Origin: [Phialemoniopsis] sp. UDSM-2020
Taxonomy: Eukaryota > Ascomycota > Sordariomycetes > Thyridiales > Thyridiaceae
Length of the DNA stretch: 64,000 nucleotides
Direction: 5' to 3'
Assembly (NCBI GenBank): GCA_018873225.1
Contig: JAEILZ010000006.1
Location: 2,418,001-2,482,000, forward strand
Shown: in pieces, positions 40,429 to 54,622 of the stretch
Position numbering within the stretch: the first letter of the stretch is position 1
Layout of the letters: every line of letters starts with the position of its first letter
Notes under the pieces: model-generated
What the model saw: the letters and a program-made list of their open reading frames with translations, nothing else
The model's database searches: none
Told to the model about the DNA's origin: nothing
Translations under genes and position numbers: made by a program

Positions 40429-42519
40429 ATGTCGATGCTCTCCTCAACTTCCTGGAGGGGTGCCTTGCTCAGCCTGCTCCTGTCCTTGCTCCTCCCTTCC
40501 TTGGCTCTCGCCCAATTTCCGAATTCATATGGCGCCAATCTCACTCGGATCGTCTCGCCACTGAATCCCAACATCACTGTCAGCTTCAAGGAACCCAAGG
40601 GCGTGTGCAAGACTGCCTTCGATAGCCAAAAGCAGTATACTGGCTGGGTGAACCTTCCGGGAAGTTATGACACCAATCTTTTCTTTTGGTTCGTCGCGGC
40701 CCGGCAACCAACATCGCTCCTTACCATATGGCTCAATGGCGGCCCGGGGTCGAGTTCAATGGTTGGTATGTTTACCGAAACCGGGCCTTGCCAGATCATA
40801 GAGCTCGGCGCAGACCGTTTGGGAACCGCTGCTCGGGAATGGGGTTGGGACCGGGCTTCCAACATGCTTTTCATTGACCAGGTATGTGTACAAAGCCTGC
40901 ACCAGGTATTATATTGCCGGCTGACCAAATTGTGCTTCTCGCTTTAGCCCAACCAAGTCGGCTTTTCGTACGACGTGCCCACGAATGGTACGCTCAACCT
41001 GCTCGGCCAGGACATCTATATCCCACCCCGCTCCACCGCCGACTACTCCCCCGTAGTGCTCAACGGTACCTTCAGCTCGCAGAATGAGAGCTCAACAGCC
41101 AACACCACTGAGCTCGCTGCGAAAGCGATATACCACATGATGCAAGGGTTCCTCACAACCTTTCCGCAGTACAACCCGCCCAATAGCTCAACGCTAGGCG
41201 TGAACCTCTTTGCTGAAAGCTATGGCGGAAAATACGGACCGATCTTCGCAGATGTCTGGGAGTCGGAGAACCTCAAGCGATCCAATGGATCCGCCTTGTC
41301 CAAGTCAACTGTGGACATACACTTGACTTCCCTGGGCATCGTCAATGGTTGCGTCGACGACCTCATTCAGGGCCCGTCTTATGCCTCCATGATGATTAAT
41401 AACACATACGGGGCTCGCCTGGTCCAGCCCCTGCAGGCCAAGCTGGCCAATGCTAGCTTCTACCAGCCAGACGGCTGCCAGGATCTCATCAATCAATGTC
41501 GCGATACTGCGGCCGTCCACGATCCTGATAACGACGGCGACGTGGAGAGCGTCAACAGCATTTGCGCCCGCGCACAAAAGACGTGCCAAACCCAGCTGCT
41601 TGACCCCTATGGCAACTCGGGTAGGAGCTACTACGATATTGCCGCTCAGCTCCCGGATTCCTTCCCCCCGGGCTTTTACGCCGAGTACCTCAATAAAGCC
41701 GACGTGCAGCTTGCCATCGGCACCCCCATCAACTTTACAGACACGAGTGATGAAGTCTACTCTGCCTTCTCAGAGACCGGCGACCAGGAACGCTACCCCA
41801 CCATCGTGCCCAAGATTGCGCGACTCCTGCGCTCAGGTGTCCGCGTGGGCCTCATCTACGGCGACCGCGACTTCATCTGCAACTGGATCGGCGGCGAGGC
41901 CGTCTCCTTTGCCGTCGCCGACGCCGCCGGGGCGCCCTACAGCTCGGCGTTCAACAAAGCTGGGTACGCGCCCATTATCGTCAACGACAGCTACATTGGG
42001 GGTGTCGTTCGGCAGTTCGGCAACCTCTCCTTCAGCCGCGTCTACCAGGCCGGCCATCTCGTCCCCGCCTACCAGCCCGAGACGGCTTTCCAGATCTTCG
42101 CCCGCATCGTCATGGGCACCAGCGTGTCTACGGGGGACCGCATCAACCTGGACGTCTATAACACCACGGGATCCGCCAATGCTACGAGCACCTTCAAGCT
42201 GCCCGACAGCCCGGCGCCAACGTGCTACGTGCGTCAGCTGAACACAGCCTGCGCAGCCGATCAGGTCAGCAGCCTGCGCAACGGGCAGGGTACCATCATC
42301 AACGGTGTGTGGTATGCGACGTCCAAGGACTGGCCAGGCGCGACCTCGACCAGCAGCGCTGGGTCGGCCATGACCACCTCACCGACCCCGACTTTGACAG
42401 GGTTGTTCACGGCGACATCAACGCCAAAGAATGGCGCAACCGGCCCGCGGGTCGACACGAAGAGTGTCGCTCTCGCTGCTTTACTTGCATTCGGTTTGGA
42501 GGCTGCGCGCCACTTTTAA
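40429..42519 (+). CDS. Secreted serine carboxypeptidase (peptidase family S10)
   Basis: Exons 40429-40881 and 40948-42519, 674 aa. Signal peptide MSMLSSTSW...LLSLLLPSLALA with probable cleavage before QFPNSYG. S10 motifs: LNGGPGSSSM (oxyanion), catalytic Ser242 (AESYGGKY), Asp459 (YGDRDFICNW) and His521 (YQAGHLVPAYQP). Many Asn-X-Ser/Thr sites. After about residue 600 comes a Ser/Thr/Pro-rich stem (TSTSSAGSAMTTSPTPT) and a C-terminal hydrophobic tail (SVALAALLAFGLEAARHF), a plausible GPI-anchor signal, which would put the enzyme on the wall or membrane. It releases C-terminal residues from peptides, acid-active in the family. The intron (40882-40947) is phase 0, within FIDQ-PNQVGFSY. Confidence 0.93.
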
Positions 42520-42850
42520 GTACGTGGTGATGCAATGTACATTGGATATATAGATATTAAGGCCTCGGCGCACAGAAGATACCCATAATAGTAATTGTCA
42601 TTTTGAAAGCATTAATGTTCTAATCTTACTTGATCAAGATTGGGCAGATCGATAATTCTCTGTGCTATGACAAGCAATAGCTGACCGGCAGTATGTATGA
42701 GACTTACATCATGATCCCTCTCTGAAGCTACGTTACTCACCTCGCGTACTGTACGGAACAGATCATGATCGACTACTTCCTTTGATTGCAACTGTTAGCT
42801 CTTGATCGGCTTAATTGTGCATTCAATAAATGAAAAAGGTAGAATGTGCT

Positions 42851-42937
42851 TGTGTCAGGGTAAAGAGCCTTGTCAAAGGCAGTATCATCAAAGCGAAATA
42901 GCTATGTTGACCGTCGTGATAAATATGCATCATGTAA
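42851..42937 (-). ncRNA. snR73: Box C/D snoRNA, snR73-like (25S C2959 guide)
   Basis: C box ATGATGC (last base off consensus) at 42933-42927, internal C' TGATGA, D box CTGA at 42858-42855. The guide complements 25S GACCGUCGUGA (42909-42919, 11 nt); a weak D' CATA (42906-42903) positions C2959 (human U35 site). Host intron 6. Confidence 0.76.
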
Positions 42938-43096
42938 AAGCATAAATGGTGAAAAGAGAAAAGTAAGGCAAACTTACTATGTATGTTGCAATTGTTGTCC
43001 TCAAGTTTGCAATGCATTGAACAAAACTTCTGGACGGGTTGGTCAGCGATCAACTCTCGAGAAAGTCATACGCAACGCCCGACGTCAACCAAGGAC

Positions 43097-43179
43097 AGGT
43101 TCAGACACGACGTTTCTCATCTGCGCTGTGAAGCTCTGACATATGCTTGTCATTAATTTAGAGTCAGATCATCATTAGA
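43097..43179 (-). ncRNA. snR74: Box C/D snoRNA, snR74-like (18S A28 guide)
   Basis: C box ATGATGA at 43175-43169, D box CTGA at 43104-43101, with an internal C'-like AGATGA between. Guide 43151-43140 (GACAAGCATATG) complements 12 nt near the 18S 5' end (CAUAUGCUUGUC). D' box CAGA (43138-43135) aligns the fifth position with A28 (human U27/SNORD27 site). Host intron 5. Confidence 0.83.
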
Positions 43180-43331
43180 TGCACCCTTGGTTGACGCTGC
43201 CGAGCGAGGCGATGTGATCATGGTGAAGGAGAAATGTACTAACACCAGGAACGTGCGTCGATAAAGTCTATGTCCGTATGTTAGCTGTTGATCAGAGCTG
43301 ACATTCGTATTACATAGTGAGTTGCGGAGGA

Positions 43332-43417
43332 AAGTTCAGGAAATGCATGAATGGTAGTAAAGTTTGTGTCTGCATCGGAAACCCGGATAAGACTCGTCAT
43401 CTAGATTCATCACGAAA
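43332..43417 (-). ncRNA. snR75: Box C/D snoRNA, snR75-like (25S G2288 guide)
   Basis: C box GTGATGA at 43413-43407, D box CTGA at 43339-43336. Guide 43403-43393 (TAGATGACGAG) complements 25S CUCGUCAUCUA over 11 nt; the degenerate D' CTTA (43391-43388) puts the fifth nucleotide opposite G2288. A second 10-nt stretch (43354-43345) complements 25S GCAUGAAUGG, about 20 nt downstream of the target. Host intron 4. Confidence 0.82.
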
Positions 43418-43578
43418 ACCGAGGTGTTGAACAAGGAGGTGAAAGAGCTTACCCTTGACAAGACCAATCCCAGCCATGTGAATTGATCGCGAGACACCAT
43501 ATCCCAGATCCTGTCGCTGGCGAGGTGTCAGCGATTACACGCGGACGAGAGGGTGCCAGCAAGAAGTTTTTGGTGGTT

Positions 43579-43668
43579 GGAATCAGTGGACGAGGTTTTC
43601 TAGGCCTGTCACAGATTGGCATGTCTGCTCATATGTGTTTCGGAGCCCAGTGCCGTTTCATCATGCAA
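43579..43668 (-). ncRNA. snR76: Box C/D snoRNA, snR76-like (25S C2197 guide)
   Basis: C box ATGATGA at 43664-43658, D box CTGA at 43586-43583. The guide complements 25S GCCCAGUGC (43645-43653, 9 nt); a degenerate D' box CCGA (43643-43640) places the target on the third C, Cm2197 in yeast. The guide is shorter than in the other five, so this is the least secure by itself; its position in the ordered series supports it. Host intron 3. Confidence 0.7.
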
Positions 43669-43781
43669 GTGCCGTCGAGTCGGAAGGAAAAGAGGGATAA
43701 TACCTTTTGACAGAAGCCCTATGTGACTAGTCAGCATCTCAAGTCATTCCAAGATGAAAGTAGCCAAGGGTGTGAAAACGT

Positions 43782-43874
43782 TGTATCAGAAACAGCCAGT
43801 TTTTATCGTCAATGAGATTCCTCTCAGCCGGTAATTCCAACTTGCCGAAGCAAAGTAAATTGTTCATCACGAAA
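43782..43874 (-). ncRNA. snR77: Box C/D snoRNA, snR77-like (18S U578 guide)
   Basis: C box GTGATGA at 43870-43864, D' box CTGA at 43827-43824, D box CTGA at 43789-43786. The guide just before D' matches 11 nt of the universal 18S sequence CGGUAAUUCCA (43829-43839). The D'+5 position is the U of GGU, Um578 in yeast, equivalent to the human SNORD65 site. Lies in host intron 2. Confidence 0.85.
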
Positions 43875-44057
43875 GAAAACAGAACAGGTGGGAAATGGGA
43901 GATGGGCAAACTAACCTGAGCGTCTTTGCTGACACAACCGGGCTGTGAGAGATGACCAAGAGTGTCCTGCTAGGGTGGAGATCCTATCCTTCGATCCAAG
44001 TCAGCATACGGAGCTCTGAACCAAGTCGAGGCAGCACGATGTGTGTGATGTGGTCGA

Positions 44058-44142
44058 TAGTTCAGACTGACGTGACAAAAGCAGTTTCATTCCAATAAGG
44101 TCAAAGACTCTAGTTTGCGGTTTGTGTGTTGTCATCAGATTG
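44058..44142 (-). ncRNA. snR78: Box C/D snoRNA, snR78-like (25S U2421 guide)
   Basis: C box CTGATGA at 44138-44132, D box CTGA at 44065-44062 (77 nt apart). Guide 44117-44106 reads CAAACTAGAGTC and is complementary over 12 nt to 25S rRNA GACUCUAGUUUG. The D' box is TTGA (44104-44101), and the fifth nucleotide upstream pairs with the U that is Um2421 in yeast numbering (recalled from memory). Lies in host intron 1. Confidence 0.82.
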
Positions 44143-44191
44143 GAGAGGACGGGAAGAAAGTAAAGTATCCGACTTACCAGCAAAATTGTGT

Positions 44192-44215
44192 GGTCTGCAA
44201 AACTCGTTGCAGACC
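44192..44215. other. Perfect 9-bp hairpin in snoRNA-host exon 1
   Basis: GGTCTGCAA and TTGCAGACC flank a 6-nt loop (AACTCG), 14 nt upstream of the host's first donor. May fold in the transcript; function unknown. Confidence 0.7.
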
Positions 44216-44559
44216 GATGTCTTCACTTGAAGATGTGCAGACGTAGAAGAAAAATTCTGGGAGCATTTGAAAAAAGAAATCGAGTTTGTAGCTTGGGCGA
44301 GCTCCATCAATTGTGGGGCGGTTCTGAGATGGAAAATCCCCGCTCCGCAACGCCGATTCCAATTGCAATTTGCCAGTGTCACGGGACTTCGTGTGCCCTT
44401 CGCTCCCCTCACCGAAAAAGGACGGCGCGTATGTCAGCATCCACGATGTCCAGTCTTGCCAAAATTGCTCATTGATTATTACACTCCTTTGTGCTGAACA
44501 TTGTGCTGAACACCTCCTTGAAACCGTACCACTCGCCCATACGATCAGTCTTTGTCGAG

Positions 44560-45955
44560 ATGCCTGAGATAGCTGAAGGTAGGAGAGCGATCGTTGCCTC
44601 TGAAGCGCGATATTCACCTACTGATGTCATCGCAACTACTACACAGTGGCACGAATTGTGCATTTTCTTCGACTTCATCTAGTCGGCAAACGGATCAACA
44701 AAGTTGCAGCCATTGAAGATGCCAATGTCTATGGTAAAGTGGGAACTAGCGGGCCAGAGTTCGAAAAGGCCCTGATTGGCAGAAAGGTTGGGCTCTATCC
44801 ATGTTCTCCAACTTGTCCTTGCACAGATGCTGATCCAGGCTGCGTGTTGTACAGGTAGTGGCTGCTGGAAACCAGGGCAAATACTTTTGGTAGGGTGAAA
44901 TCAAGCGAATATGCCAAGACACCACTAATCGTGGTGTACAGGCTGGTCATGGACAAACCACCCCATCCGGTGATGCACTTTGGGATGACTGGTGAGTTCT
45001 AACCATCGGGTATCTTGATACCATTTTTTGTATAAGATAGCTGAGCATTTTTAAAGGATGGATCCACATTAGAGGCGTGCGGACAGCATACACCAACTAC
45101 TACAACAAGATGAAGCCCGGGGAAGAAGATCAATGGCCTCCCAAGTATTGGAAGTTCCAGCTTGAGACCGAAGGTGACCCCAAAGTCGAGGTTGCATTCG
45201 TCGACCCCCGGCGTTTCGGTCGTGTGCGTCTCGTGGATTGTCCCGGCAAGGACATTCGCCAAGCGTCTCCGCTCGTCCAGAACGGGCCGGATCCAGTCGT
45301 TGATCAAGACGTCTTTACCGAAGAGTTTCTTCTCGACAAGACGCGCAATCGACACGTGCCCATCAAAGCTCTTCTCTTGGATCAGGCCATGATTAGTGGC
45401 ATCGGAAACTGGGTTGCGGACGAGGTTCTGTATAATGCCAAGCTCCACCCCGAGCAATATTGTGATGAGTTCAACGATTCCCAGATCAAGACGCTTCACA
45501 AGAGTATATGCTATGTTACTCGCCTTGCTTGCGAGAAGCTAGGCGACTCGGATCAGTTTCCAGAGGAATGGCTGTTCAACCATCGCTGGGGCAAGGGCAA
45601 GAAGGACGCAGCAAGCTCCCTACCAAATGGAGAGAAGCTCGCGTTCATCACGGTGGGCGGTCGGACTAGCTGCTATGCACCAAATGTCCAGAAGAAGACC
45701 GGTCATGTGGCCCCCGGTATCAAGGAAGAGCCGCTCACTTCCCCCAAGGAAAAGAAGGCACCCACCAAAACCAAGGCGCCTAAGAATGAAGTTTCGGCCG
45801 AACCCCCCTCAAAGAAGCGGCGGAAGGAGACCCAAGTCGCGATCAAAAAGGAGGAAGACGATCAAGATGTGAAGAAAACGAAGCCAAACGCAAAGAAAGC
45901 ACAGGACATCAACAGTATTAACAGGCGACGTTCGGCAAGACTGTCAAGCGCCTGA
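44560..45955 (+). CDS. Fpg/MutM-type DNA glycosylase
   Basis: Bifunctional base-excision glycosylase/AP-lyase family. Five exons: 44560-44578, 44647-44786, 44855-44889, 44942-44991, 45057-45955; 380 aa. The first exon is 19 nt and encodes MPEIAE, with the catalytic Pro2 and Glu3 at the splice-created N-terminus MPEIAEVARIVHFL. Other motifs: HFGMTGWIHIRG, FVDPRRFGR, the helix-two-turn-helix LLLDQAMISGIGNWVADEVL, and a zincless-finger loop FITVGGRTSCYAPNVQKKTG instead of a Cys4 zinc finger, as in plant Fpg and animal NEIL1. The C-terminal about 80 residues are Lys-rich (nuclear localisation likely: PSKKRRKE). It should remove oxidised purines such as FapyG. Divergent from the snoRNA host transcript. 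Confidence 0.94.
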
Positions 45956-53321: not shown

Positions 53322-54622
53322 ATGTCGAGTCGTAAACGACTGATATCTGGCTCGAGGCGCACAGGTGGCTCTTCCGCCCCTGCGATCCAGGCTGGTGGAG
53401 GCTCTGTGCGCCTTCCACCTTACGAACCGCCATCATGCCCTCTAGATGAGAATGCAAAGCGCGCGCTCGCCGAGATCTCCACCAATCGCGAAATCACGAG
53501 AAAATACGATACCCACCTCAAACAGTCAGTCTCGCTCCTGCGTGACAGCATCGGCGGCGTCAACGACCGCCTTTATGAGAGGCGGGACGAGCTTCGGCAC
53601 CTCGCTGCACGTCGTGAAGAGAAGCAACTCGACACCAAGTCACATCAGGAGGAAAGGGCTGAGATGGCGACGGACGTATTGGAAGCCGAGGTGCCAGAGT
53701 TGACGGAGCAAATTGAGTCTGCTGTCCGGGAGGTGATTGACTACCGCTGCGAGCTTGACGACGAACAAGCGGTGATCTCTTCGATGCTGGACCACATCCG
53801 CTCGGTCCAGCCTCATCAGCAAGAACCGAGACGAACACGACAGGCAGCAGCTGCGGAGGATAACGACCCCGCTGCCGACGCCGATATTGCCATGGACGAC
53901 GCTCCAGATGTGCCGCTTGTGAGCGCTGCTGAACTGCTGCAAACAGCCAAGAAGTCGAAAGCCGCCGATTACAATAAGCTGAGTGCCCACGAGAAGTATG
54001 GACTCAACAACGACTACATCGCCTTCAAGAGAACATGGCATGATGCCGAAAACCAAGACAATGTGCCCCTCCCAGATGCTTCTGCCTGGTTCGATCGACA
54101 TGGAAGACCTGTTCTATCTGCGCGGGTCGACCAAGACGGAGGTCTTTCTGACGAGGAGGAAGATGAGGACTTGGTCGTCGCACGGGAAGTTATCAGCTTC
54201 CAGTGCCCCCTCTCCCTGGTCACCATGACCGAGCCGTTCAGCAACGACAAGTGTAAACATACATTTGAAAAGTCGGCTATCTTGGAGTTCCTACGTGGTG
54301 GCCCCAAACAATGCCCCCAAACCGGTTGTGCCATGGTAAGTGGCTCTTCTCCCTTCCTGATTGTTGTAATAGGTCAGATAAGCAGCTAACATCACCTTCT
54401 GTGCAGACACTCTACACAAAGGACATGTATCTTGACAAGGTTATGCTCCGCAAGATCAAGCGCACACAACAAGCCGCCCAGCGAGGCGTGGGAGACACCT
54501 CTGACGTGGAGCCTGATGAAGATGGCGATGCTAGTATGATCGCTGGAGCGGCCCGCGATGTCAAGAAGGAACGTGTCAACAGGAATAGGAGGCGAGCCGC
54601 AGAAGAAGTGGAAGAAGATTAG
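53322..54622 (+). CDS. NSE2: Nse2/Mms21-type SUMO E3 ligase (SP-RING)
   Basis: Subunit of the Smc5/6 complex that sumoylates repair and chromatin proteins. Exons 53322-54335 and 54407-54622, 409 aa. N-terminal helical region (about 45-180) for binding the Smc5 coiled coil; acidic linker (SDEEEDEDLV). SP-RING from about 293: FQCPLSLVTMTEPFSNDKC with Cys295, Cys311, His313 (KCKHTF), Cys331 and Cys336 (CPQTGC). The intron falls just after this last Cys (GCAM-TLYTKDMYLDK). Basic tail KKERVNRNRRRAAEEVEED. Longer than yeast Mms21 mainly through the linker and N-terminal disordered part. ATG 53322 is the first in frame. Confidence 0.9.

Follow-up and report, generated by a model that had tools for sequence, protein, structure and literature searches.

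A predicted snoRNA host gene with six intronic box C/D units, very probably an orthologue of fungal snoRNA gene cluster I

The window analysed here is a stretch of 64,000 nucleotides from [Phialemoniopsis] sp. UDSM-2020, and on its minus strand, from about 44180 to 42780, lie six box C/D snoRNAs in the order snR78-77-76-75-74-73, one in each predicted intron. They are flanked by a serine carboxypeptidase gene, on the plus strand and ending at 42519, and by a formamidopyrimidine-DNA glycosylase-type (Fpg-type) gene, also on the plus strand at 45077-45955; four minus-strand frames between or overlapping these neighbours gave no Pfam match. The glycosylase has 1853 protein relatives at E up to 1e-20, and among the best 120 of these the nearest is 82% identical and the named ones are, by their genus names, presumably Sordariomycetes (taxonomy was checked for only Naviculisporaceae and Fusarium oxysporum), the class to which Neurospora also belongs. 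A scan of the window for bacterial promoters and terminators was uninformative here. The six units, measured from the start of box C to the end of box D, are as follows.

44062-44137, minus strand: unit 1, snR78/72 double-guide box C/D snoRNA; boxes, D' and D guides; Rfam snR78, 21.7 bits (gathering score 48), E 4
43786-43869, minus strand: unit 2, snR77 homologue; D' guide; Rfam Afu_300, 57.6 bits, above gathering
43583-43663, minus strand: unit 3, snR76 homologue; D' guide; Rfam Afu_513, 76.2 bits, above gathering; snoR118, 34.7 bits, below gathering
43336-43412, minus strand: unit 4, snR75; D' guide; Rfam snR75, 72.9 bits, above gathering
43101-43174, minus strand: unit 5, snR74 / SNORD27 homologue; D' guide; Rfam SNORD27, 28.7 bits (gathering score 52), E 0.045
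42855-42932, minus strand: unit 6, snR73 homologue; D' guide; Rfam snR73, 34.6 bits, just below gathering (37), E 0.0032

Box D is CTGA in all six units. Box C matches RUGAUGA exactly in five; in the snR73 unit it reads ATGATGC, and the D' box of the same unit, CATA, matches two of the four letters of CTGA. Against all Rfam models, three of the six units pass the gathering score. The E values given for the remaining three come from a permissive scan of 3 kb (E up to 10), whose 14 rows also include cross-matches to snoR118 and snoR77Y and of which several are probably chance matches; the snR78 match is near noise on score alone. The snR78, SNORD27 and snR73 units do not attain their gathering scores, so their assignment rests on guide, order and literature and not on Rfam membership. 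The Rfam check that the earlier note had proposed for snR73-78 thus came out positive for half of the set (Afu_513, snR75 and Afu_300), with snR73, SNORD27 and snR78 falling below.

The rRNA reference used for the guides was an approximate yeast sequence, not the species' own, and comprised 3399 nt of 25S (the true length of which we take to be 3396 nt) and the first 646 nt of 18S; the expected bases are present in it at 25S 876, 2197, 2288, 2421 and 2959 and at 18S 28 and 578. A match was counted as in register when at least eight contiguous Watson-Crick pairs placed the fifth base before the box opposite one of 46 known sites, the box being accepted with at least two of the four letters of CTGA. 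By this test, and against the approximate yeast rRNA, the minus strand of the region holds exactly seven in-register matches, six at D' and one at D, facing seven sites, and its plus strand holds none.

snR78/72 unit, D' guide: 25S U2421, 12 nt
snR78/72 unit, D guide: 25S A876, 8 nt unbroken, or about 12 bp if one bulged base is allowed, -15.9 kcal/mol
snR77 unit, D' guide: 18S U578, 11 nt
snR76 unit, D' guide: 25S C2197, 9 nt
snR75 unit, D' guide: 25S G2288, 11 nt
snR74 unit, D' guide: 18S A28, 12 nt
snR73 unit, D' guide: 25S C2959, 11 nt

In the part of PMC8307265 available to us, a table assigns these sites to the same snoRNAs, namely U2421 to snR78, U578 to snR77, C2197 to snR76, G2288 to snR75, A28 to snR74, C2959 to snR73 and 25S A876 to snR72. 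The strand, number and order of the units given in the earlier note were borne out by the Rfam matches, the boxes and the in-register guides, and against the approximate yeast rRNA its run lengths of 12, 11, 9, 11, 12 and 11 nt were reproduced and all six D' guides proved to be in register with the methylated sites it had named. Its guide list, correct for D', had omitted the snR72 guide on the D side of unit 1. Unit 1 is a double guide, snR78 by D' and snR72 by D, and with this second guide counted the set is snR78/72-77-76-75-74-73.

Dinucleotide shuffles (n=1000) gave between 0 and 5 in-register sites, mostly 0 or 1. Across the whole window, at a threshold of 9 nt, five further in-register matches were found, four of them minus-strand and one plus-strand, so that single matches of this kind are not evidence. 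The one inspected individually, an 11-nt run for 25S 2793 at 53685 on the minus strand, falls within open frames of both strands, with no box C seen upstream, and was taken for chance; the other four are 9-10 nt long. We also rejected the length of complementarity as stand-alone evidence, since it is too weak: two 12-mers pair with the approximate yeast rRNA, where shuffled sequence yields 0.48 on average and as many as 5.

Two further stretches lie in the 3' halves of units. CCATTCATGC (43345-43354, minus strand), in the snR75 unit, is complementary over 10 nt to 25S 2307-2316 of the approximate yeast sequence, a pairing that lies 12 nt beyond the snR75 D' duplex, is out of guide register and has a duplex energy of -17.0 kcal/mol; the Rfam snR75 consensus is conserved where this stretch falls. 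By analogy, this complementarity may serve as an accessory contact like the one that the available part of PMC5389607 describes for snR13. CAGGCCTAGAAAACCTCG (43583-43610, minus strand), in the snR76 unit, is near-identical to Afu_513 and partly so to plant snoR118. Before box D of this unit no unbroken 8-nt complement to the approximate 25S or to the first 646 nt of 18S was found that could form a second guide, and a duplex search of the 3' half against this rRNA gave no convincing pairing and no in-register target.

Searches of other contigs with eukaryotic 25S and 18S rDNA patterns gave no loci in viral contigs and four loci in genome contigs, where only a short eukaryote-type 28S stretch near the contig end was found, in each case on a contig of a bacterial metagenome-assembled genome.

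L001, 4794-4836: 28S stretch
L002, 33-75: 28S stretch
L003, 32-74: 28S stretch
L004, 2942-2984: 28S stretch

The snR75 target is present in all four, which gives no independent support because the search pattern contained that target, and none of the four contigs had an Rfam match at gathering. Eukaryote-type 28S on bacterial metagenome-assembled contigs suggests that these four are probably contaminating eukaryotic DNA; perhaps they carry elements inserted in 28S.

Around each of the six snoRNA units we found signals for a donor, a branch point and an acceptor, and as far as signals go this upholds the arrangement of one snoRNA per intron that had been proposed. The predicted introns and internal exons are listed in the direction of transcription.

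43989-44177, minus strand: predicted intron 1, GTAAGT ... GCTGAC ... AAG, 189 nt
43916-43988, minus strand: predicted exon 2, 73 nt
43719-43915, minus strand: predicted intron 2, GTTAGT ... GCTGAC ... TAG, 197 nt
43704-43718, minus strand: predicted exon 3, 15 nt
43511-43703, minus strand: predicted intron 3, GTATTA ... GCTGAC ... CAG, 193 nt, weakest 5' splice site
43453-43510, minus strand: predicted exon 4, 58 nt
43268-43452, minus strand: predicted intron 4, GTAAGC ... GCTAAC ... TAG, 185 nt
43244-43267, minus strand: predicted exon 5, 24 nt
43030-43243, minus strand: predicted intron 5, GTTAGT ... GCTGAC ... CAG, 214 nt
42978-43029, minus strand: predicted exon 6, 52 nt
42780-42977, minus strand: predicted intron 6, GTAAGT ... 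GCTAAC ... AAG, 198 nt

Two introns have an alternative TAG acceptor, with which exon 2 would begin at 43983 (intron 1) and exon 7 at 42772 (intron 6). From donor to the start of box C the distances in introns 1-6 are 40, 46, 40, 40, 69 and 45 nt, and from box D to the start of GCTGAC or GCTAAC they are 56, 50, 50, 50, 53 and 55 nt. A donor of the form GT[AGT]AG[TC] lies at most 75 nt upstream of five of the six units, the exception being the snR76 unit with GTATTA, and GCTRAC starts 45-60 nt after box D in all six; when the spacers were shuffled 5000 times, the donor test reached three units at most and the GCTRAC test one, with criteria that were chosen only after the sequence had been seen. 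Past the last snoRNA intron, within 42700-42745 on the minus strand, there are two donor-like sequences, GTGAGT at 42740 and GTAAGT at 42707, and the host may therefore have an extra intron without a snoRNA.

According to the earlier note, the exons of the host share no open frame. This did not hold, since one acceptor combination (acceptors before 43983 and 42779) gives a 215-codon ATG frame spanning all of the model exons, 1 to 7, a result that counts against a simple 'non-coding' label. It requires that particular acceptor pair and an assumed start of exon 1 at 44500; with five other pairs of acceptors the ATG frames are 93-171 codons long. The assumed exon 1 extends an open frame at 44174-44617 on the minus strand, which is part of the 215-codon spliced frame. 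If the exons did encode a short lineage-specific protein, with the snoRNAs in the introns of its gene, the rarity of such a frame would be accounted for, as a frame this long arose in only 7 of 5000 exon-wise shuffles (in 911 some frame links exon 1 with exon 7), and so would the longest stop-free stretch, which is 124-155 codons in all 36 variants of acceptor combination and exon skipping. With the first-chosen acceptors it is 144 codons without an ATG, a length reached in 31 of 5000 shuffles. We nevertheless consider a protein-coding host improbable. Besides the dependence of the spliced frame on one acceptor pair and an assumed start, a protein search found nothing related to it among 97 candidates at E up to 10, and Pfam gave no match in a scan that covered the 144-codon and 93-codon frames. 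The G+C content of the 215-codon frame at the three codon positions is 0.521, 0.447 and 0.451, the last comparing with third-position values of 0.757 and 0.630 in two neighbouring genes; and spliced hosts of such clusters are described, in the available part of PMC3596301, as poorly conserved and without long frames. Since the frame has neither a homologue that we could find nor coding-like third positions, we read the host as probably non-coding.

The order of the genes, being that of the yeast cluster, would also suit genuine snoRNAs cut out of an unspliced polycistron between the units, as in Saccharomyces. Such processing is very improbable here, given the donor, branch and acceptor signals around the units, with GCTRAC in six of six where the shuffles gave at most one, and given that PMC3596301, in its available part, describes the clusters of Euascomycetes as lying in introns. 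We give almost no credence to the idea that the units are functionless and resemble snoRNAs only through decay or by chance: although three of the six units are below the Rfam gathering score and the guide lengths by themselves are unremarkable, seven in-register guides in a conserved order, the empty plus-strand control, the shuffles with no more than five sites in 1000 trials and three strong Rfam matches all argue against it.

The boxes, their order, the guides in register with the approximate yeast rRNA, the Rfam matches and the splice and branch signals form the direct basis of our reading, which we hold with a confidence close to certainty, that the locus is an orthologue of cluster I, with a spliced, probably non-coding host and six intronic snoRNAs guiding 2'-O-methylation of rRNA. 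That the host is transcribed and spliced in this species, and that its snoRNAs are released and direct methylation, we infer from the sequence. RNA polymerase II would begin on the minus strand somewhere upstream of about 44180 and continue past 42780, and the probably non-coding transcript would be spliced, each of the six introns carrying one box C/D snoRNA (snR78/72, 77, 76, 75, 74 and 73). Exonucleases would then free the snoRNA from the excised and debranched intron, the snoRNA itself being shielded by core snoRNP proteins, and the resulting snoRNPs would methylate, in yeast numbering, A28 and U578 of 18S and A876, C2197, G2288, U2421 and C2959 of 25S rRNA.

For mammalian intronic box C/D snoRNAs, the available part of a review (PMC8162545) places the optimum some 50 nt upstream of the branch point and names Aquarius/IBP160 as aiding assembly. 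By analogy, the near-constant spacing from box D to the branch motif, 50-56 nt, might reflect splicing-coupled assembly of the Aquarius/Cwf11 type as in mammals, which filamentous fungi would have retained and Saccharomyces would have lost along with the introns, and the host exons might in addition encode a young short protein; we put this combined proposal forward as speculation that is unlikely to be right in full. Under it, the fungus would use mammalian-type splicing-coupled snoRNP assembly. Tests of position-dependent snoRNP assembly in fungi could make use of this uniform spacing to the branch motif. Known biology is unchanged by the locus. What it offers is a clean annotation of a host and its six housekeeping guide RNAs, of which Rfam gathering scores call just three, and a further example of the ancestral-looking intronic layout being retained, as against the unspliced yeast cluster.

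Like the animal host genes of the UHG and gas5 type, the locus places a single snoRNA in each intron of a spliced host that is little conserved, and its box D about 50 nt before the branch motif is near the mammalian optimum (PMC8162545, available part). The snoRNA content is different, and host homology is not part of the likeness. With Saccharomyces cerevisiae snR72-78 it shares the snoRNAs, their order and their rRNA targets (sites as in the available table of PMC8307265), whereas the yeast transcript is unspliced and has separate snR78 and snR72 (PMC3596301 and PMC2780460, available parts). The earlier note was right that the yeast set is a polycistron processed without introns; the available text of PMC3596301 states this, and the contrast with it is already in print there.

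Closer counterparts are known from Neurospora crassa, where CD5, CD24, CD12, CD7, CD21 and CD31 are intronic on chromosome VI (Liu et al. 2009, PMC2780460, available part). These are homologues of the six units with the same targets, and CD5 is likewise an snR72/snR78 double guide, directing Am856 (snR72, by D) and Um2383 (snR78, by D'). The snR72 guide is 10 nt unbroken in Neurospora and here 8 nt with a bulged extension. In the same source spliced hosts of clusters I-V were seen by RT-PCR, and we infer that the six are its 'cluster I', in some transcripts of which exon 2, or exons 2 and 3, are skipped.

The novelty that the earlier note implied falls away, since Luo et al. 2013 (PMC3596301, in the part available to us) describe cluster I as lying within introns in the Euascomycetes they examined, with snR78 and snR72 fused. 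There, the recombined snR78/72 intron is reported for all Euascomycetes studied and for Yarrowia lipolytica, and 83 of 323 predicted snoRNA-associated introns, in three clusters, were verified by EST or RT-PCR. The present locus agrees with fungal snoRNA gene cluster I, the set snR78-77-76-75-74-73-72, in its six units, their order and strand, one snoRNA per intron and small internal exons, and with the Euascomycete form in the joining of the snR72 guide to snR78 in one snoRNA; no structural difference was found in the features compared. As these two papers already describe the cluster and its counterparts, the locus is not new in kind but a further orthologue of a described gene.
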